Part shown: positions 2,110 through 22,721 of the stretch, piece by piece
How positions within the stretch are numbered: the first letter of the stretch is position 1
How the letters are laid out: the number at the start of each line of letters is the position of its first letter
Source of the DNA: a virus
Strand: one strand, 5' to 3'
Length of the DNA: 26,111 bases
IMG/VR virus record: IMGVR_UViG_3300032665_000169
Span: 1 to 26,111 of that record
Translations under genes and position numbers: made by a program
The notes under the pieces: generated by a model
What the model saw: the letters and a program-made list of their open reading frames with translations, nothing else
Told to the model about the DNA's origin: nothing
Databases searched by the model: none

Positions 2110-2832
2110 TTAGTTTTTTAGGTAATAGGCACGTATATGATCATACCTATTTTTGGTTAAATTGTATTTGGTCATTATTTGGTTGGGTTTCAACCCAGAA
2201 TCATAATCGTTTTTAATCGCTAATAGATCAAATTGTTTATCTAATTTCCGAACTTGGTCAGATTTTTTACGTCTATTATCCGGATTTTGATAATAATCTT
2301 TCATAGCTTGCGATTTAGACCTAATAGTAATAGTTGTAGGTTTATTATTCCTGTTTCCTGCCAACTTTGTTGCCTCTTCAAGAGTTTTTCCATTGGCAAG
2401 ATGTCTTCTTATTGATAGTTTTATTCTGGTTTCTTCGCTAACAAGTCTACGCCTGTTTGATTCGGATAATTTCTTCCGCATTTCGGCGGATATTTGTTTC
2501 CCAGGTCTACCCATTTTTTTCCGGGATTCTTCTGTGTGTTTTCTACCCTTGAAGTGAGGTCCGCCTTCGCCTCCGACACCGAGATTGTAGACATCTTTCC
2601 GTTTAACAAATTCTTCCGTAATCAACTCTTTTTCTTTATTATTCATTTCTTCTTCTGTGTCAAAAACAAATAATATCTCTTTTACAAAGTTTTCTTTTCC
2701 ATGTTTAGCAATAGCTTTAAGTAAAGCTATGCCGCTACCAAAGTAATTGTCGTTTATATTTTGGGTTTGGTGTTTGCCTATATAAATCTTTTTATTGATT
2801 AAATTGGTAATTTGATAAATTGTGTATTTCAT
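2110..2832 (-). CDS. free-standing GIY-YIG homing endonuclease with NUMOD3-type motifs
   Basis: The protein has 240 residues. The GIY-YIG module is at residues 1-95 or so: [38 protein letters not shown]. It is followed by [13 protein letters not shown] and similar segments (residues 97-145) typical of NUMOD3 DNA-binding repeats, then a basic helix-turn-helix-like tail ([17 protein letters not shown]). It makes a site-specific break and promotes its own spread. The gene ends eight bases upstream of the initiator-like tRNA-Met. Upstream of its start lie GATAAATA, a 12-base palindrome, and a 5' tRNA-Met fragment, so the gene appears inserted into an older tRNA-Met. No Shine-Dalgarno is seen; the octamer ends four bases before the ATG. 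Confidence 0.88.
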
Positions 2833-2836
2833 ACGG

Positions 2837-2844
2837 TATTTATC
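2837..2844 (-). promoter_or_regulatory. late-promoter octamer GATAAATA
   Basis: GATAAATA on the minus strand matches the T4-type late consensus TATAAATA at seven of eight bases. It ends four bases before the ATG of the GIY-YIG gene, so a transcript started there would be almost leaderless. A perfect 12-base palindrome (2851-2862) lies just upstream. Confidence 0.45.
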
Positions 2845-5785: not shown

Positions 5786-6226
5786 TTATTTCTTTAGAGA
5801 AAAGTAGAAATCCTTCCATTTATCTCCTATTTGTTCATCAATATTAACATGCTCTGTAATTTTGCCCGCATGAGTTAATCTATGACAGTTAGGGCATAAT
5901 GCAGTTAAGTTTGAGTTATCATCTGAACCACCTTTGCTTTTGGCTAATATGTGATGTATATCCAGCGATGCTTCTCTCCAACCACATCTTGAACATCCAA
6001 GACCCATTCTTATAAGTATTTTACTTGCGGTTCGTTTACTTACATCTTTTAATCCTGTTGGATTTTTTCCAACAAATGACTTTGCTTGCTTTATCTTTGT
6101 CTCTGTTGTATGTGATTTTCCAGTAAATGTTCCTGGCAACCTATTTGGATTTAGTTTACATCTACTTTCGTGCATGGCAATCAAACCAGCATTTGGAAAT
6201 TTTTTTTGGTAAAAATTACAATTCAT
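5786..6226 (-). CDS. free-standing HNH homing endonuclease
   Basis: This 146-residue protein has an HNH/zinc core at residues 78-118: CSRCGW, then LDIHHILAKSKGG (the first His pair), SNLTALCPNCHRLTH with the N and final H plus the second Cys pair. The N-terminus (CNFYQKKF...MHESRC) resembles a DNA-binding zinc finger that has lost one Cys. It nicks or cuts DNA and promotes gene spread. GGAG precedes the ATG, right after a hairpin (GACTG...CAGTC). The gene lies between a 35-base tRNA-Tyr 5' half (6258-6292) and the complete tRNA-Tyr copy 2, which suggests the tRNA-Tyr anticodon region is its insertion site. Family confidence is high; target and activity are inferred. Confidence 0.87.
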   Translation of the reverse strand: MNCNFYQKKFPNAGLIAMHESRCKLNPNRLPGTFTGKSHTTETKIKQAKSFVGKNPTGLKDVSKRTASKILIRMGLGCSRCGWREASLDIHHILAKSKGGSDDNSNLTALCPNCHRLTHAGKITEHVNIDEQIGDKWKDFYFSLKK

Positions 6227-7629: not shown

Positions 7630-7703
7630 TGGCGCTCCGCACGGTATTCGAAACCGTTCTGCAGGATTTTAGAGATCTCCGCTGACCATCAGCAAAGCGG
7701 AGC
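7630..7703 (-). tRNA. amber-suppressor tRNA (anticodon CTA)
   Basis: Complete cloverleaf on the minus strand: acceptor GCTCCGC/GCGGAGC perfect, D arm TGCT/AGCG around GATGGTC, anticodon arm GAGAT-CTCTAAA-ATCCT (one A-C mismatch, one G-U) with anticodon CTA, T arm ACGGT-TTCGAAT-ACCGT perfect, discriminator G, encoded CCA. CTA reads UAG. G73 would suit Gln charging, but the first pair G-C is not Gln-like, so the inserted amino acid is uncertain. It stands apart from the main array with its own sigma70-like promoter and a terminator. Confidence 0.85.
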
Positions 7704-19103: not shown

Positions 19104-19439
19104 ATGAGCGATTTTGATTATGAGTTGACAGCAGGTCAAACAGTAAACCCTTTGCCTGATGTAATTTTAGTAACTAATATGGAACACGGTGAACGTGTTC
19201 TTGCATCAGGTCTAATAATTCCAGATGACAATGGCAAAAATAGCGGTATCAAACCTAGATGGGCCACGGTATGGCGTGTTGGGTCTGCTGTGGATGATGT
19301 TAAACCAGGAGATAAAATACTTGTAGCCCATGGTCGATGGACCCGCGGTGTGAAAGTCAAGGAAAGCGACGGCAGTTTCAGTGTTGTGAGACGTGTTGAC
19401 CCTAAAGATATTTTGCTTGTAAACGACAGTCACAGTTGA
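19104..19439 (+). CDS. GroES-like co-chaperonin (gp31-type)
   Basis: The protein has 111 residues. PLPDVILVTNMEHGERVLASG opens like GroES, with LASGLIIPDD, WATVWRVGSAVDDVKPGDKIL and DPKDILLV matching successive strands of the Cpn10 barrel; the stretch around residues 24-45 corresponds to the mobile loop that contacts GroEL. T4 gp31 replaces host GroES to fold the major capsid protein, so the same role is likely. The gene lies 12 bases after the previous one and about 50 before the clamp-loader N-terminus. Confidence 0.82.
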   Translation: MSDFDYELTAGQTVNPLPDVILVTNMEHGERVLASGLIIPDDNGKNSGIKPRWATVWRVGSAVDDVKPGDKILVAHGRWTRGVKVKESDGSFSVVRRVDPKDILLVNDSHS

Positions 19440-19488
19440 CGCACCGCGTTTCTCTAACACATATTATATCAAATGGAGAAACAAAAGT

Positions 19489-19731
19489 ATGAGTGTTAAA
19501 GATTTGTGGGTTGAACGTTATCGTCCAACTAAATTGGAAGATTATGTATGGAGTGACGATGCGCAAAAAACACAGGTAATGAGTTGGGTACATGATAAGG
19601 CTATTCCAAATCTCTTGCTATCGGGCTCTGCCGGAGTTGGTAAATGTCTAGGCCCGGATGAAAAGATTACAATACGATTAGATAAATCTAAATTATCACC
19701 GGAACAACATCGTATACTTGGTATAGAATAA
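19489..19731 (+). CDS. clamp loader large subunit (gp44-like), N-extein plus 28-residue N-intein
   Basis: The protein has 80 residues. Residues 1-52 are the start of a gp44/RFC-type AAA+ clamp loader: WVERYRPTKLEDYV is the RFC box and LLLSGSAGVGK is Walker A, cut directly after its Lys. Residue 53 is Cys and the remaining 28 residues (CLGPDEKITIRLD...) are intein block A, ending at TAA. The missing Thr of GKT is the first C-extein residue in the fragment at 21669. Protein trans-splicing would rebuild a loader of about 311 residues (T4 gp44 has 319). GGAGA precedes the ATG; TTGACG...CATATT upstream (19436-19465) is a possible promoter. The N-intein is far shorter than in classical split inteins. 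Confidence 0.9.
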   Translation: MSVKDLWVERYRPTKLEDYVWSDDAQKTQVMSWVHDKAIPNLLLSGSAGVGKCLGPDEKITIRLDKSKLSPEQHRILGIE

Positions 19732-19735
19732 TATT

Positions 19736-19785
19736 GTATTTGCTCCATTGTGAGATAAATAATTTCACAATGGAGCAAATACGAT
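19736..19785 (+). promoter_or_regulatory. 18-bp hairpin masking the endonuclease ribosome binding site, late promoter in its loop
   Basis: GTATTTGCTCCATTGTGA (19736-19753) and its exact complement (19765-19782) form an 18-bp stem with an 11-base loop. The loop contains GATAAATA (19754-19761), one base from the T4 late consensus. GGAG (19772-19775), ten bases before the ATG at 19786, is inside the right arm. Through-transcripts would hide it; transcripts begun at the loop promoter would start within the right arm and expose it. Confidence 0.75.
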
Positions 19786-21264
19786 ATGATAAGAAAAACT
19801 GCTCAACGTCGAACTGACGAATTCACCTCTAAATCAAACGTAGTAAAATTTTTTGGTAAAGATTACATATTATCTGCTGAAATTAAATATGAATTACTAG
19901 ATTTTTGGACAAAGTGGTTGGATGACAATCCTACACTTGAACCTAATGGACCAGTTTACGACAGGCTATGCAATTTTATTAAGAGCGGTGAATTAGATTT
20001 TTATAAACGTTATAGAAAAATTCAAACACTTAAAAGTCATACACTTCAGCAATATCAAATTTTATTTGGAGTTGAATTAGGTACGGTTCGATATAATAAT
20101 CGCAATAGTAGAATATCAAATAAAAGCAAATTACAAACAACAGATGAAAAAATTGATGCATTTTGTCAGTTAAAAAATATAAAAGACAAAATTGCGCGAG
20201 AAGAATTATCTCATGATCAATTAAGTGAATTATCGCAATTGTTTGATGCGTTCGAATGGAATTCATTTAAGGAAATTTGGTCTTTGATACTTGATTTAGT
20301 TAAGTTCCACTACCCAAATTACATCAAAAGATACCAAATCTGCATAAACAACCATTATACAAGTGAAGCGTATCTGTTAGCAAGGTTTGGCAATAATCAA
20401 GACCATTTAAAGTATTTAGAAATAAAAAAATCCAATCAAGGTAAAAATAGCTTTGCAAACTGCACAGAATATTGGACAAGCAGAGGGTTTGATTACGACG
20501 CTGCATTAGAACAAGTAAAAATAGTCCAAACAAGTAGATCAAAACGGGCTGGGGATCTAGCAAAAGAAGATCTGAATAGAACTCCTAGACAGATTGGTTA
20601 TTGGGTACGTAAAGGTTATTCTGATTCTGACGCGAAGCAAATTATATCAAATTTACAGCGTAGAGATTTAGAATTTTTTGTGTTAAAATATGGATGCGAT
20701 GACGGGTATATTAGATATCAAAAGATGTTAGATAGTCGTAAAGAAACTTGGTATGCACGGTCCAATGAAGAACGAGATCAAATAAATGAAACAAGAGGGC
20801 GAACTTTTAATGACCTGGTTGAAATGTATGGTAAAACAAAAGCAATTGAAATAATTGTAAGTCGTGCGTCTGGTAACTGCGGCGTGAGCAAAGAAAGTGT
20901 TGATTTTTTTATAGATTTAGACCAATTATTGGGGGAAGAACTAGCAGAGAAATCAGTAACAGGTTATAAAGGCTCTGAAAGATTTGTAATCACAAATAAC
21001 GGGATAATTTTTGTAGATTATTACCTAGATGGAAAAATTGTTGAATATTTTGGAAGTTTTTGGCATGCAGATCCTAGATTGTTTACACCTGATAAGATAC
21101 ATTCGGTTGTTGGTTTACGTGCTGAAGAAATGTGGTTACGAGATAAAAATCGTATAGACAGCCTAAATAACCTAGGTTATAAAGTATTAGTGCTATGGTC
21201 AACAGATGTTAATCAAGATAGAGAATCTGCATTGATCAATGCAAAAGAATTTTTATTAGGATAA
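19786..21264 (+). CDS. Vsr-like (EDxHD-type) homing endonuclease between split-intein halves
   Basis: The protein has 492 residues. The C-terminal 95 or so residues carry a Vsr/very-short-patch-repair-like nuclease: GIIFVDYYLDGKIVEYFGSF, then FWHADPRLF, MWLRDKNRID and GYKVLVLWSTD. This is the layout of the endonuclease family described with fractured genes in phage metagenomes. The central 250 residues contain recurring phrases (YWTSRGFDYDAAL; YWVRKGYSDSDAK) that look like DNA-binding repeats. It presumably cuts intein-free clamp-loader genes and spreads the insertion. The gene sits 54 bases after the N-intein stop and eight before the C-intein start, all on one strand. Its translation is probably gated by the upstream hairpin. 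Confidence 0.85.
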   Translation: MIRKTAQRRTDEFTSKSNVVKFFGKDYILSAEIKYELLDFWTKWLDDNPTLEPNGPVYDRLCNFIKSGELDFYKRYRKIQTLKSHTLQQYQILFGVELGTVRYNNRNSRISNKSKLQTTDEKIDAFCQLKNIKDKIAREELSHDQLSELSQLFDAFEWNSFKEIWSLILDLVKFHYPNYIKRYQICINNHYTSEAYLLARFGNNQDHLKYLEIKKSNQGKNSFANCTEYWTSRGFDYDAALEQVKIVQTSRSKRAGDLAKEDLNRTPRQIGYWVRKGYSDSDAKQIISNLQRRDLEFFVLKYGCDDGYIRYQKMLDSRKETWYARSNEERDQINETRGRTFNDLVEMYGKTKAIEIIVSRASGNCGVSKESVDFFIDLDQLLGEELAEKSVTGYKGSERFVITNNGIIFVDYYLDGKIVEYFGSFWHADPRLFTPDKIHSVVGLRAEEMWLRDKNRIDSLNNLGYKVLVLWSTDVNQDRESALINAKEFLLG

Positions 21265-21272
21265 TTGGAAAA

Positions 21273-22448
21273 ATGACACAACTGGTAGAATATAACGTTA
21301 GTATTAGAACACTATTTGAACTAACAGATAATTTGAATGCAGAGTTCGAATCTGCACAAGATATTTCCAATTTAGGAATAGAAATTCAAACACCGAATGG
21401 TTGGCAAGAAATCAATGCACTGGTAAGAAAATATACCGATGCTGCTAGATATTTGTTAGAAGATGATTTGGAATTAATATGTGCTACAAAGCATTTAGTT
21501 TTCGAAGATACTGTATGTAAGCCAATTGCAAATTGCACCACATTAGACACTGTCAACGGATCTGTAAAAGTAATTGGATCAGAATACTTGGGCCAACAGG
21601 TGCTATATGACATAGCAATTGATAATCCGCATGTATATATAACGTCAAACGGAATTATACATCACAACACTACACTTGCTAAATGCTTGTTTAATGAATT
21701 GGGTGTTGATCCAACCGATATTCGGTATGTCAATGCAAGTCATAACACAGGTGTTGATTATTATAGAAATTTGACAGGCTTTGTTGAAACAATGCCATCT
21801 GGTGATTATAGATATATTCTCTTAGATGAGGCAGACTATCTTTCACCGAATGCACAGGCTATGCTGCGTTCAATGATGGAAGAATATTCTAACATTTGTA
21901 GATGGATACTGACTTGCAATTATCCACACAAGATAATACCTGCGCTGCATTCTCGTACACAAGGGTTTCATATAGAAGATTTAGACCGAGAACAATTCGT
22001 TACACGCGCGGCTACAATTCTTATTACAGAAGGTATTGATCTTACAGAGGAAAATTTAGAAATACTTGATGAATATGTAACGGTTACGTATCCTGATTTA
22101 CGTAAATGTATTAATCTATTACAACAAAATTGTACCAATTCTGAACTAAAGCGTCCCAGTGCTCGTAGTGGCAAAGGTTCTGCAGATTATATAGTTTCAG
22201 CTGTATCACTTTTCAAAGAAGGACGTATACACGATGCTAGAAAACTTATCTGTGCCAATGCAACAAGTGAGGAATACGAAGACTTATATAAGCTGCTGTA
22301 TCGAAACTTGAGCTGGTGGGGTAACACAGAAGATCAACAGAACAGAGCCATTGTAATTATAGCTAATAGATTACGTGATCATGCACTGGTAGCAGACGCT
22401 GAAATGAATTTAGCAGCCTGTTTAATAGAATTATCTATGATAGGTTAG
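21273..22448 (+). CDS. 132-residue C-intein plus clamp loader C-extein (gp44-like)
   Basis: The protein has 391 residues. Residues 1-132 are the C-intein: ATKHLVFEDT is block B (TxxH), LYDIAIDNPHVYITSNG with IIHHN is blocks F and G, ending in the splice-site Asn132. Residues 133-391 continue Walker A (TTLAKCLF) with Walker B YILLDEADYLS, sensor 1 RWILTCNYPHKI and an Arg-finger region PALHSRTQGF. Together with the 80-residue N fragment it gives a full AAA+ clamp loader, the ATPase that loads the sliding clamp on primer-template DNA. The first C-extein residue is Thr, the usual Walker A Thr, serving as nucleophile. The stop TAG is followed four codons later by TGA. Confidence 0.9.
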   Translation: MTQLVEYNVSIRTLFELTDNLNAEFESAQDISNLGIEIQTPNGWQEINALVRKYTDAARYLLEDDLELICATKHLVFEDTVCKPIANCTTLDTVNGSVKVIGSEYLGQQVLYDIAIDNPHVYITSNGIIHHNTTLAKCLFNELGVDPTDIRYVNASHNTGVDYYRNLTGFVETMPSGDYRYILLDEADYLSPNAQAMLRSMMEEYSNICRWILTCNYPHKIIPALHSRTQGFHIEDLDREQFVTRAATILITEGIDLTEENLEILDEYVTVTYPDLRKCINLLQQNCTNSELKRPSARSGKGSADYIVSAVSLFKEGRIHDARKLICANATSEEYEDLYKLLYRNLSWWGNTEDQQNRAIVIIANRLRDHALVADAEMNLAACLIELSMIG

Positions 22449-22452
22449 ATGC

Positions 22453-22698
22453 TTATTGGTTGATAATGGCAGTGCTGGTTTGTTTATCTAATGTCATGGT
22501 TCCATAACAACAGATATTCCAATCATCATTGCCGTGCCCGTCTTTTGAAACTTCGTCGTGGCACGTAACATTTATTTGCAAATGCTTTACAATATACTCT
22601 TGACCATTTTCAAAAACACGCCACACATGGTCTTTAGACCCTCGCCCTGGCATACCACGAGACTTATTGAATCTAATAAGATATTTGTTTTTAAGCAT
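22453..22698 (-). CDS. small hypothetical protein
   Basis: The protein has 81 residues, convergent with the clamp loader gene (four-base gap). It contains several His and Cys residues (NVTCHDEVSKDGHGNDDWN, CCYG) and reads as a small beta-rich domain (YLIRFNKSRG, HVWRVFENGQEYIV). No family is named. A sigma70-like promoter (TTGGTT-17-TATAAT, 22722-22750) and AAGGA lie upstream. Confidence 0.7.
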   Translation of the reverse strand: MLKNKYLIRFNKSRGMPGRGSKDHVWRVFENGQEYIVKHLQINVTCHDEVSKDGHGNDDWNICCYGTMTLDKQTSTAIINQ

Positions 22699-22721
22699 CA
22701 GCGTTTTCCTTATAGTTAATA

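Follow-up and report, generated by a model that had tools for sequence, protein, structure and literature searches.

Genes fractured by split inteins together with Vsr-like endonuclease genes have been described before (Dassa et al. 2009, as cited in PMC12350094 and PMC7891396), and so have inteins with a very short N-terminal part, such as AceL-TerL (25 residues), GOS-TerL, VidaL (16 residues) and PolB16 OarG (15 residues) (PMC13014065, PMC10189870), the published N-intein range of atypically split inteins being 15-37 residues (PMC13014065). In phages MIJ3 and PA5oct, a split PolB intein is accompanied by an HNH homing endonuclease gene (HEG) (PMC6892783). For I-TevI, SegB and MobE, the ribosome site of the HEG is enclosed in a hairpin on early transcripts and a late promoter lies just upstream (PMC2988022). 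Here we analyse positions 1-26,111 of IMGVR_UViG_3300032665_000169 (the whole stretch is called the window below), from a virus that infects bacteria. The best explanation of its gp44 locus, and one we consider very likely, is a clamp-loader ATPase gene of the gp44/RFC-small-subunit type that a mobile element has fractured; the element consists of an intein split near its N-terminus and, in the break, a free-standing HEG of the Vsr/EDxHD type. Neither fractured genes with Vsr-like HEGs nor ultra-short, near-N-terminal N-inteins are new in themselves; the apparent novelty lies in the range of graded states found in one gene: empty, contiguous, split with a HEG, split with a broken HEG, split with a relic, and split clean.

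The window gp44 consists of two open reading frames (ORFs) on the same strand with a free-standing endonuclease gene between them (Table 1), the hallmark of a fractured gene. The halves cover the clamp-loader family phrog_168 consecutively (positions 7-55 by the N half, 56-309 by the C half), and the break falls exactly between the Lys and the Thr of Walker A. The spliced product is predicted to have 311 residues. Pseudomonas phage Paride (PA5oct group) encodes gp44 in one uninterrupted gene, and the upstream order is common to Paride and the window: a hypothetical gene, a DnaE-like DNA polymerase fragment, a second hypothetical gene, a GroES-like gene and gp44. The order of the three genes nearest gp44 is also kept in contigs L010, L049 and L056. 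This synteny with PA5oct-like Pseudomonas phages, where gp44 is intact, identifies the window gene as the orthologous gp44. The DnaE-like element is a stand-alone DNA polymerase III alpha fragment (window:18116-18655; phrog_11127, 2.9e-37) that adjoins gp44 in conserved order in relatives. A first-pass annotation, made from the letters alone, had already put the break between Lys and Thr and given the coordinates and lengths of both halves, which the ORF check and the phrog_168 matches bear out. It had also read a 28-residue N-intein starting at Cys, a 132-residue C-intein ending HHN before Thr and a Vsr-like endonuclease gene between the halves on the same strand, in agreement with the sequence and, for the endonuclease, with the model described below. 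Only its block B, given as TxxH, was misread: the residues are ATKH, that is, AxxH.

Table 1. Features of the fractured gp44 locus (positions in the window)
Feature	Position	Strand	Evidence or remarks
gp44 N half, ORF	19489-19731	+	80 residues; 52-residue extein, then 28-residue intein
N-extein, 52 residues, ends GSAGVGK (Walker A through Lys)	19489-19644	+	phrog_168 1.8e-12; 58% identity to the N-terminus of Paride gp44
N-intein CLGPDEKITIRLDKSKLSPEQHRILGIE, 28 residues from Cys1, plus stop codon	19645-19731	+	sequence; aligns with the start of the contiguous L003 and L053 inteins
Perfect 26-bp hairpin, arms 19731-19756 and 19762-19787; pairs the Shine-Dalgarno sequence (SD) of the HEG (GGAG, 19772-19775)	19731-19787	+	fold z-score -7.5
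T4-late-promoter-like octamer GATAAATA at hairpin tip	19754-19761	+	sequence; expected 0.006 per 55 nt
HEG, 492 residues; predicted Vsr/EDxHD nuclease domain at about residues 370-492	19786-21264	+	NCBIfam vsr 0.011; phrog_22677 1.3e-13
gp44 C half, ORF	21273-22448	+	391 residues; 132-residue intein, then 259-residue extein
C-intein, 132 residues, ends NGIIHHN	21273-21668	+	Pfam and PDB sequence matches; alignment
C-extein, 259 residues from Thr+1, plus stop codon	21669-22448	+	phrog_168 3.2e-49; 55% identity to Paride gp44

The window intein has the nucleophile C1, the block-B H74, the penultimate H131, the terminal N132 and the nucleophile T+1; H74, H131, N132 and T133 (C-half numbering) are invariant across six aligned sequences. 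PDB sequence matches of the C-intein were the Npu DnaE, gp41-1 and VidaL inteins. At the same gp44 codon, contigs L003, L053 and L006 bear a contiguous intein; between the window and L003 the exteins are 75% identical and the inteins 54%. With a total of 159-162 residues (window, L010, L049 and L056), the two intein halves together equal the contiguous inteins of L003 and L053 (160 and 159 residues), so no part of the intein is missing from the two ORFs (the totals of L132, 181 residues, and L139, 174, were left out because the C-half starts chosen there are probably too far upstream). The tail of the N-intein is conserved between the window and L010 (LSPEQHRIL and LSEEQLRLL, respectively). 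The contiguous L003 intein, modelled with alignment A6 (in which the L010 N-half row is still partly misaligned), gave a Hedgehog/intein (HINT) fold with a predicted local distance difference test (pLDDT) of 81 and a predicted template modelling score (pTM) of 0.76; its best Foldseek match was VidaL 6vgv (4e-7), and VIA-align Z reached 17.1. In this model the break falls in a loop of low confidence (about residues 22-36) that follows strand 12-18, near the published S1/S2 split sites (PMC13014065), and the 28-residue N-intein lies within the bounds of an atypical split (about 15-37 residues, after beta2 or the first helix). Sequence and model thus support a split class-1-type intein, with a near-N-terminal split like that of AceL-TerL and VidaL. 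A pattern scan of bacterial genome contigs gave no close homologues of the C half. As for the signs that the first-pass annotation had named against its own reading, the HINT fold was found in the model of the contiguous homologue, and mutation of the Cys or Asn was not seen in the aligned relatives, which conserve both; the search of other gp44 genes that it had proposed returned the same break and catalytic residues in independent phages.

We discarded three other accounts of the locus. An assembly artefact was rejected because the arrangement recurs in other contigs, and chance because independent phages share the position of the break as well as Cys1, the block-B His, HHN and Thr+1. An intron in place of an intein was rejected since 19300-22700 holds no group I or II RNA; the RNA-family search of this interval gave only sub-threshold microRNA matches, caused by the hairpin.

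Sequence and structure prediction support the ORF in the gap as a homing endonuclease of the Vsr/EDxHD type. Profile searches returned weak Vsr matches (Table 1) and a PDB sequence search chance matches only, while Foldseek with the modelled nuclease domain retrieved Vsr 1cw0 (probability 0.99) and I-Bth0305I 3r3p (probability 0.89). Residues D411, E420, H427 and D453 are invariant among six homologues. A split gp44 with a homologous HEG occurs in the same arrangement in three diverged phage contigs, L010, L132 and L133, whose HEGs are 34% (over 477 residues), 45% and 38% identical to that of the window. Homologues of this HEG also sit in other broken genes: a ClpB-like AAA gene of L141, whose gene pieces were confirmed by Pfam and whose HEG comes with a hairpin and TATAAATA; the uvsX of Paride (L009:3262-6307), with a Walker A break and a 17-residue N-intein; an SbcC/gp46-like gene (L012:3385-6690) fractured at Walker A by a Ser1 intein; and, in L011, a canonical split in a gene that we read as nrdJ. 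The ClpB-like AAA genes at L141:3694-7989 and L161:4313-7200 are both split at a Walker A by the same intein type. Annotation of the Paride uvsX locus gives just two UvsX-like ORFs and a hypothetical protein, and uvsX is not mentioned in the text on the MIJ3/PA5oct PolB intein (PMC6892783), though in the PA5oct-like Paride it is fractured too. Just upstream of gp44 in L003 (2526-3674, minus strand) lies a zinc-ribbon/DUF723 and Vsr-like ORF that resembles the CapR-EDxHD group of HEGs (PMC12350094).

Between the stop codon of the N half and the start of the HEG lies the hairpin with the octamer at its tip (Table 1). Hairpins are also found at homologous HEGs, with z-scores of -4.5 (L010), -2.7 (Paride), -4.9 (L132), -6.8 (L133) and -8.3 (L141). 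Folding of six homologous HEGs placed the 3' arm either on the SD and start codon or beside them (with only partial SD coverage in L132), and [TG]ATAAATA is present upstream in five of the six, all but L133. In the L010 record, TATAAATA ranks first of its 56 anagrams within 60 nt upstream of ORF starts (18/34), which fits T4-type late promoters. From sequence and by analogy we infer a hairpin-gated late expression of the HEG, of the T4 type. The octamer GATAAATA is also found a few bases upstream of the start of a GIY-YIG HEG elsewhere in the window (2110-2844, minus strand); interspersed with the window tRNAs are another GIY-YIG gene (766-1449) and an HNH gene (5786-6226).

The gp44 site occurs in several states. 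It is empty in 71 of 80 kept loci, and in Paride and L005 as well. A contiguous intein occupies it in L003 (identical to L001 and L002), L053 (identical to L054 and L055) and L006. Split copies differ in what fills the gap: a full homologous HEG (window, L010, L132, L133), other or divergent HEGs (L155, L163), a truncated HEG of which the nuclease part alone is kept (L049), an apparently broken ORF (L156), 1.4 kb without a long ORF (L152), or a short gap with a C-terminal HEG relic, as in L139 (SLEKLGYNVLSLWGIDAQTDVTTAINLCKDFINEN) and L056 (86 nt; relic <0.001 against L049 in 1000 shuffles, about 0.1 against the window and L010). In L142 and L144 the split remains with no HEG, in gaps of 35-46 nt. 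The first-pass annotation had suggested that the combination of ultra-short N-intein, clamp-loader host and endonuclease may be new; this holds only in part, since the combination turns up in several further phages and inteins of this type occupy the P-loops of other phage genes.

Presence of the intein on the extein tree implies at least four changes on well-supported branches, and inteins are sometimes more similar than their exteins (54% vs 40% for L010 and L053). A second site, at Walker B (DE|C), is occupied in L003 (3729-6633) and L132 (4203-8656) by a shared canonical split intein with a TnsA-like endonuclease ORF between the halves. The DNA of this element is 90.6% identical between the two contigs, with sharp edges, while the flanking exteins are about 72% identical, a contrast that in sequence terms is a homing-like signature. 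As L132 is occupied at both sites, its gp44 is encoded in three pieces and carries two split inteins, each with a HEG; the window allele is empty at Walker B (LLDE-ADY). Inteins of the GK|C...HHN|T type were also observed in UvsW-type-helicase-like and UvsX-like recombinase P-loops, split in L150 and L151 and contiguous in L157, L158, L159, L172 and L181. The L010 record (G001:71573-73663 and 138629-139546) has a terminase large subunit that appears to be divided into three or more pieces and to hold two split inteins and a contiguous one, two of the pieces lying about 65 kb apart; its N-terminal piece was looked for in that record and not found. In the 484-kb phage LR756508 (L006:508-2373), a polymerase-like gene a few genes upstream of the clamp-loader intein apparently also has an intein, ending VHN|T.

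We infer the following working for the window element. The two gp44 halves would be made as separate proteins, and their 28- and 132-residue intein parts would associate into a HINT fold. Cys1 would attack the upstream bond, the acyl group would move to Thr+1 and Asn132 would cyclise, leaving an uninterrupted 311-residue loader with Walker A restored. On read-through transcripts the ribosome site of the HEG would be locked in the hairpin; the putative late promoter at its tip would yield transcripts without the 5' arm, so that the endonuclease would be made late. It would then cut gp44 (or intein) alleles without the element, which would be copied across. In time the HEG may decay while the split intein persists, and some lineages may re-fuse the halves into one cis-splicing intein.

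Several observations weigh against this account. The block-B Thr is replaced by Ala in the window (A or S takes this place in the aligned relatives, where the His alone does not vary), and the intein by itself scores weakly in sequence searches (Pfam 0.02, below the cut-off). The modelled structure is that of the contiguous L003 homologue, 54% identical, and not of the two window chains; Foldseek E-values for the HEG are weak (0.12) despite the probability of 0.99; and L133 is without a good late-promoter octamer. Finally, the window record is a 26-kb fragment, so that a second gp44 could exist elsewhere in its own genome. This incompleteness favours a scenario in which gp44 has lost its function to the endonuclease, what remains of the intein is degenerating and a different clamp loader serves the phage. 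We find it very improbable, given that split copies retain their catalytic residues and precisely the K|T junction despite their divergence and that the exteins stay conserved (75% to L003). Nor was a second full gp44, which the first-pass annotation had listed as a sign against its reading, found in the large relatives: the 218-kb L010 record has the two halves only (one further match, a weak one, belongs to another AAA protein), and the 200-kb L132 record also lacks one. Could the halves work without splicing? HEG-split genes of that kind exist in T4-like phages, as in the ribonucleotide reductase of phage Aeh1, whose pieces assemble non-covalently (as cited in PMC2988022 and PMC10448857). 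That two gp44 polypeptides do the same, with the intein as a vestige, is nevertheless extremely improbable: the break is inside Walker A, where unspliced tails would be expected to wreck ATP binding, the intact intein active site is conserved, and the contiguous forms read through as a full intein. The hairpin, in turn, might not lock the SD or carry a late promoter but instead terminate transcription or serve as an operator through which the HEG represses itself; a protein could bind a palindrome of 26 perfect base pairs, and I-TevI represses its own promoter (PMC2988022). No T-run follows the stem, though, and the position of the 3' arm and the upstream motif across the folded HEGs also speak against this role, making it rather unlikely.

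The direction of change can be weighed on an LG+G4 intein tree with more taxa, which replaced a mixture-model tree of seven inteins discarded for its implausibly long branches. Contiguous L053 is sister to split L139 (100/99), contiguous L003 falls within the clade of the window, L132 and L133 (100/100), and contiguous L006 is sister to L163 (93/92); such nesting of contiguous forms within split ones suggests re-fusion. On the best tree, re-fusions alone would number 3 and fractures alone 9 (6-11 over 1000 bootstraps). The best-supported pairs of the HEG tree, window with L132 (87/94) and L010 with L049 (94/93), agree with the intein groups, which suggests joint descent. These data suggest a split first and then three re-fusions, on a tree whose root is not fixed; repeated homing into contiguous alleles could mimic the pattern. 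Evolution could instead have run only from contiguous to split, each split copy being a fresh HEG insertion and none re-fused. If the HEG homes to contiguous alleles, repeated breakage at one site is plausible, and L003 and L053 could be surviving uninvaded alleles; we still find such one-way change doubtful in view of the event counts, the matching HEG pairs and the closeness of contiguous L053 to L139, which is split and keeps a C-terminal relic of the HEG. There is, in our judgement, about an even chance that splitting is a reversible stage in the life of P-loop inteins, in which a hairpin-gated late HEG keeps the fracture, the HEG decays (truncated, relic, gone) and the halves re-fuse into a cis-splicing form, and in which the cassette of split intein and HEG also moves among ATPase P-loops (gp44, ClpB-like).

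Among the 16 tRNA genes of the window, one at 7630-7703 has a CTA anticodon (called Pyl by ARAGORN) and is perhaps an amber suppressor. The gp44 C half ends in TAG, at the same place where its relatives end.

How split inteins originate, and whether they can revert, is still debated, mostly on the strength of isolated cases. In this phage group a single gene presents candidates for most of the intermediate steps, each of them open to synthesis and experiment, and contiguous L053 with its close relative L139 (split, with an endonuclease relic) would allow a direct test of fracture against re-fusion. The family also adds to the natural split inteins new ones whose N-halves measure 21-33 residues, useful for protein labelling with synthetic peptides, and would place replication-clamp loading under post-translational assembly.

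Compared with known fractured genes, the locus shares a conserved replication gene broken by a split intein, a free-standing Vsr-type HEG in the break and a phage setting. Dassa et al. reportedly name eight enzyme types in their abstract, and a clamp loader may be among them. With that proviso, the window differs in its clamp-loader host, broken at Walker A, and in a split very near the N-terminus, and its family differs in the graded loss of the HEG and in apparent re-fusion. With AceL-TerL, GOS-TerL, VidaL and PolB16 OarG it has in common a very short N-intein, a long C-intein and a predicted HINT fold, VidaL being the best structural match, whereas its 28-residue N-intein lies in gp44 and has close contiguous homologues at the same codon. 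The split PolB of MIJ3 and PA5oct is likewise a fractured replication gene and comes from the same phage relatives, but the gene and the HEG type are different. As in I-TevI, SegB and MobE, the ribosome site of the HEG is predicted to be hidden in a hairpin with a late promoter just upstream; unlike those intron-borne or intergenic genes, the HEG of the window splits an intein.
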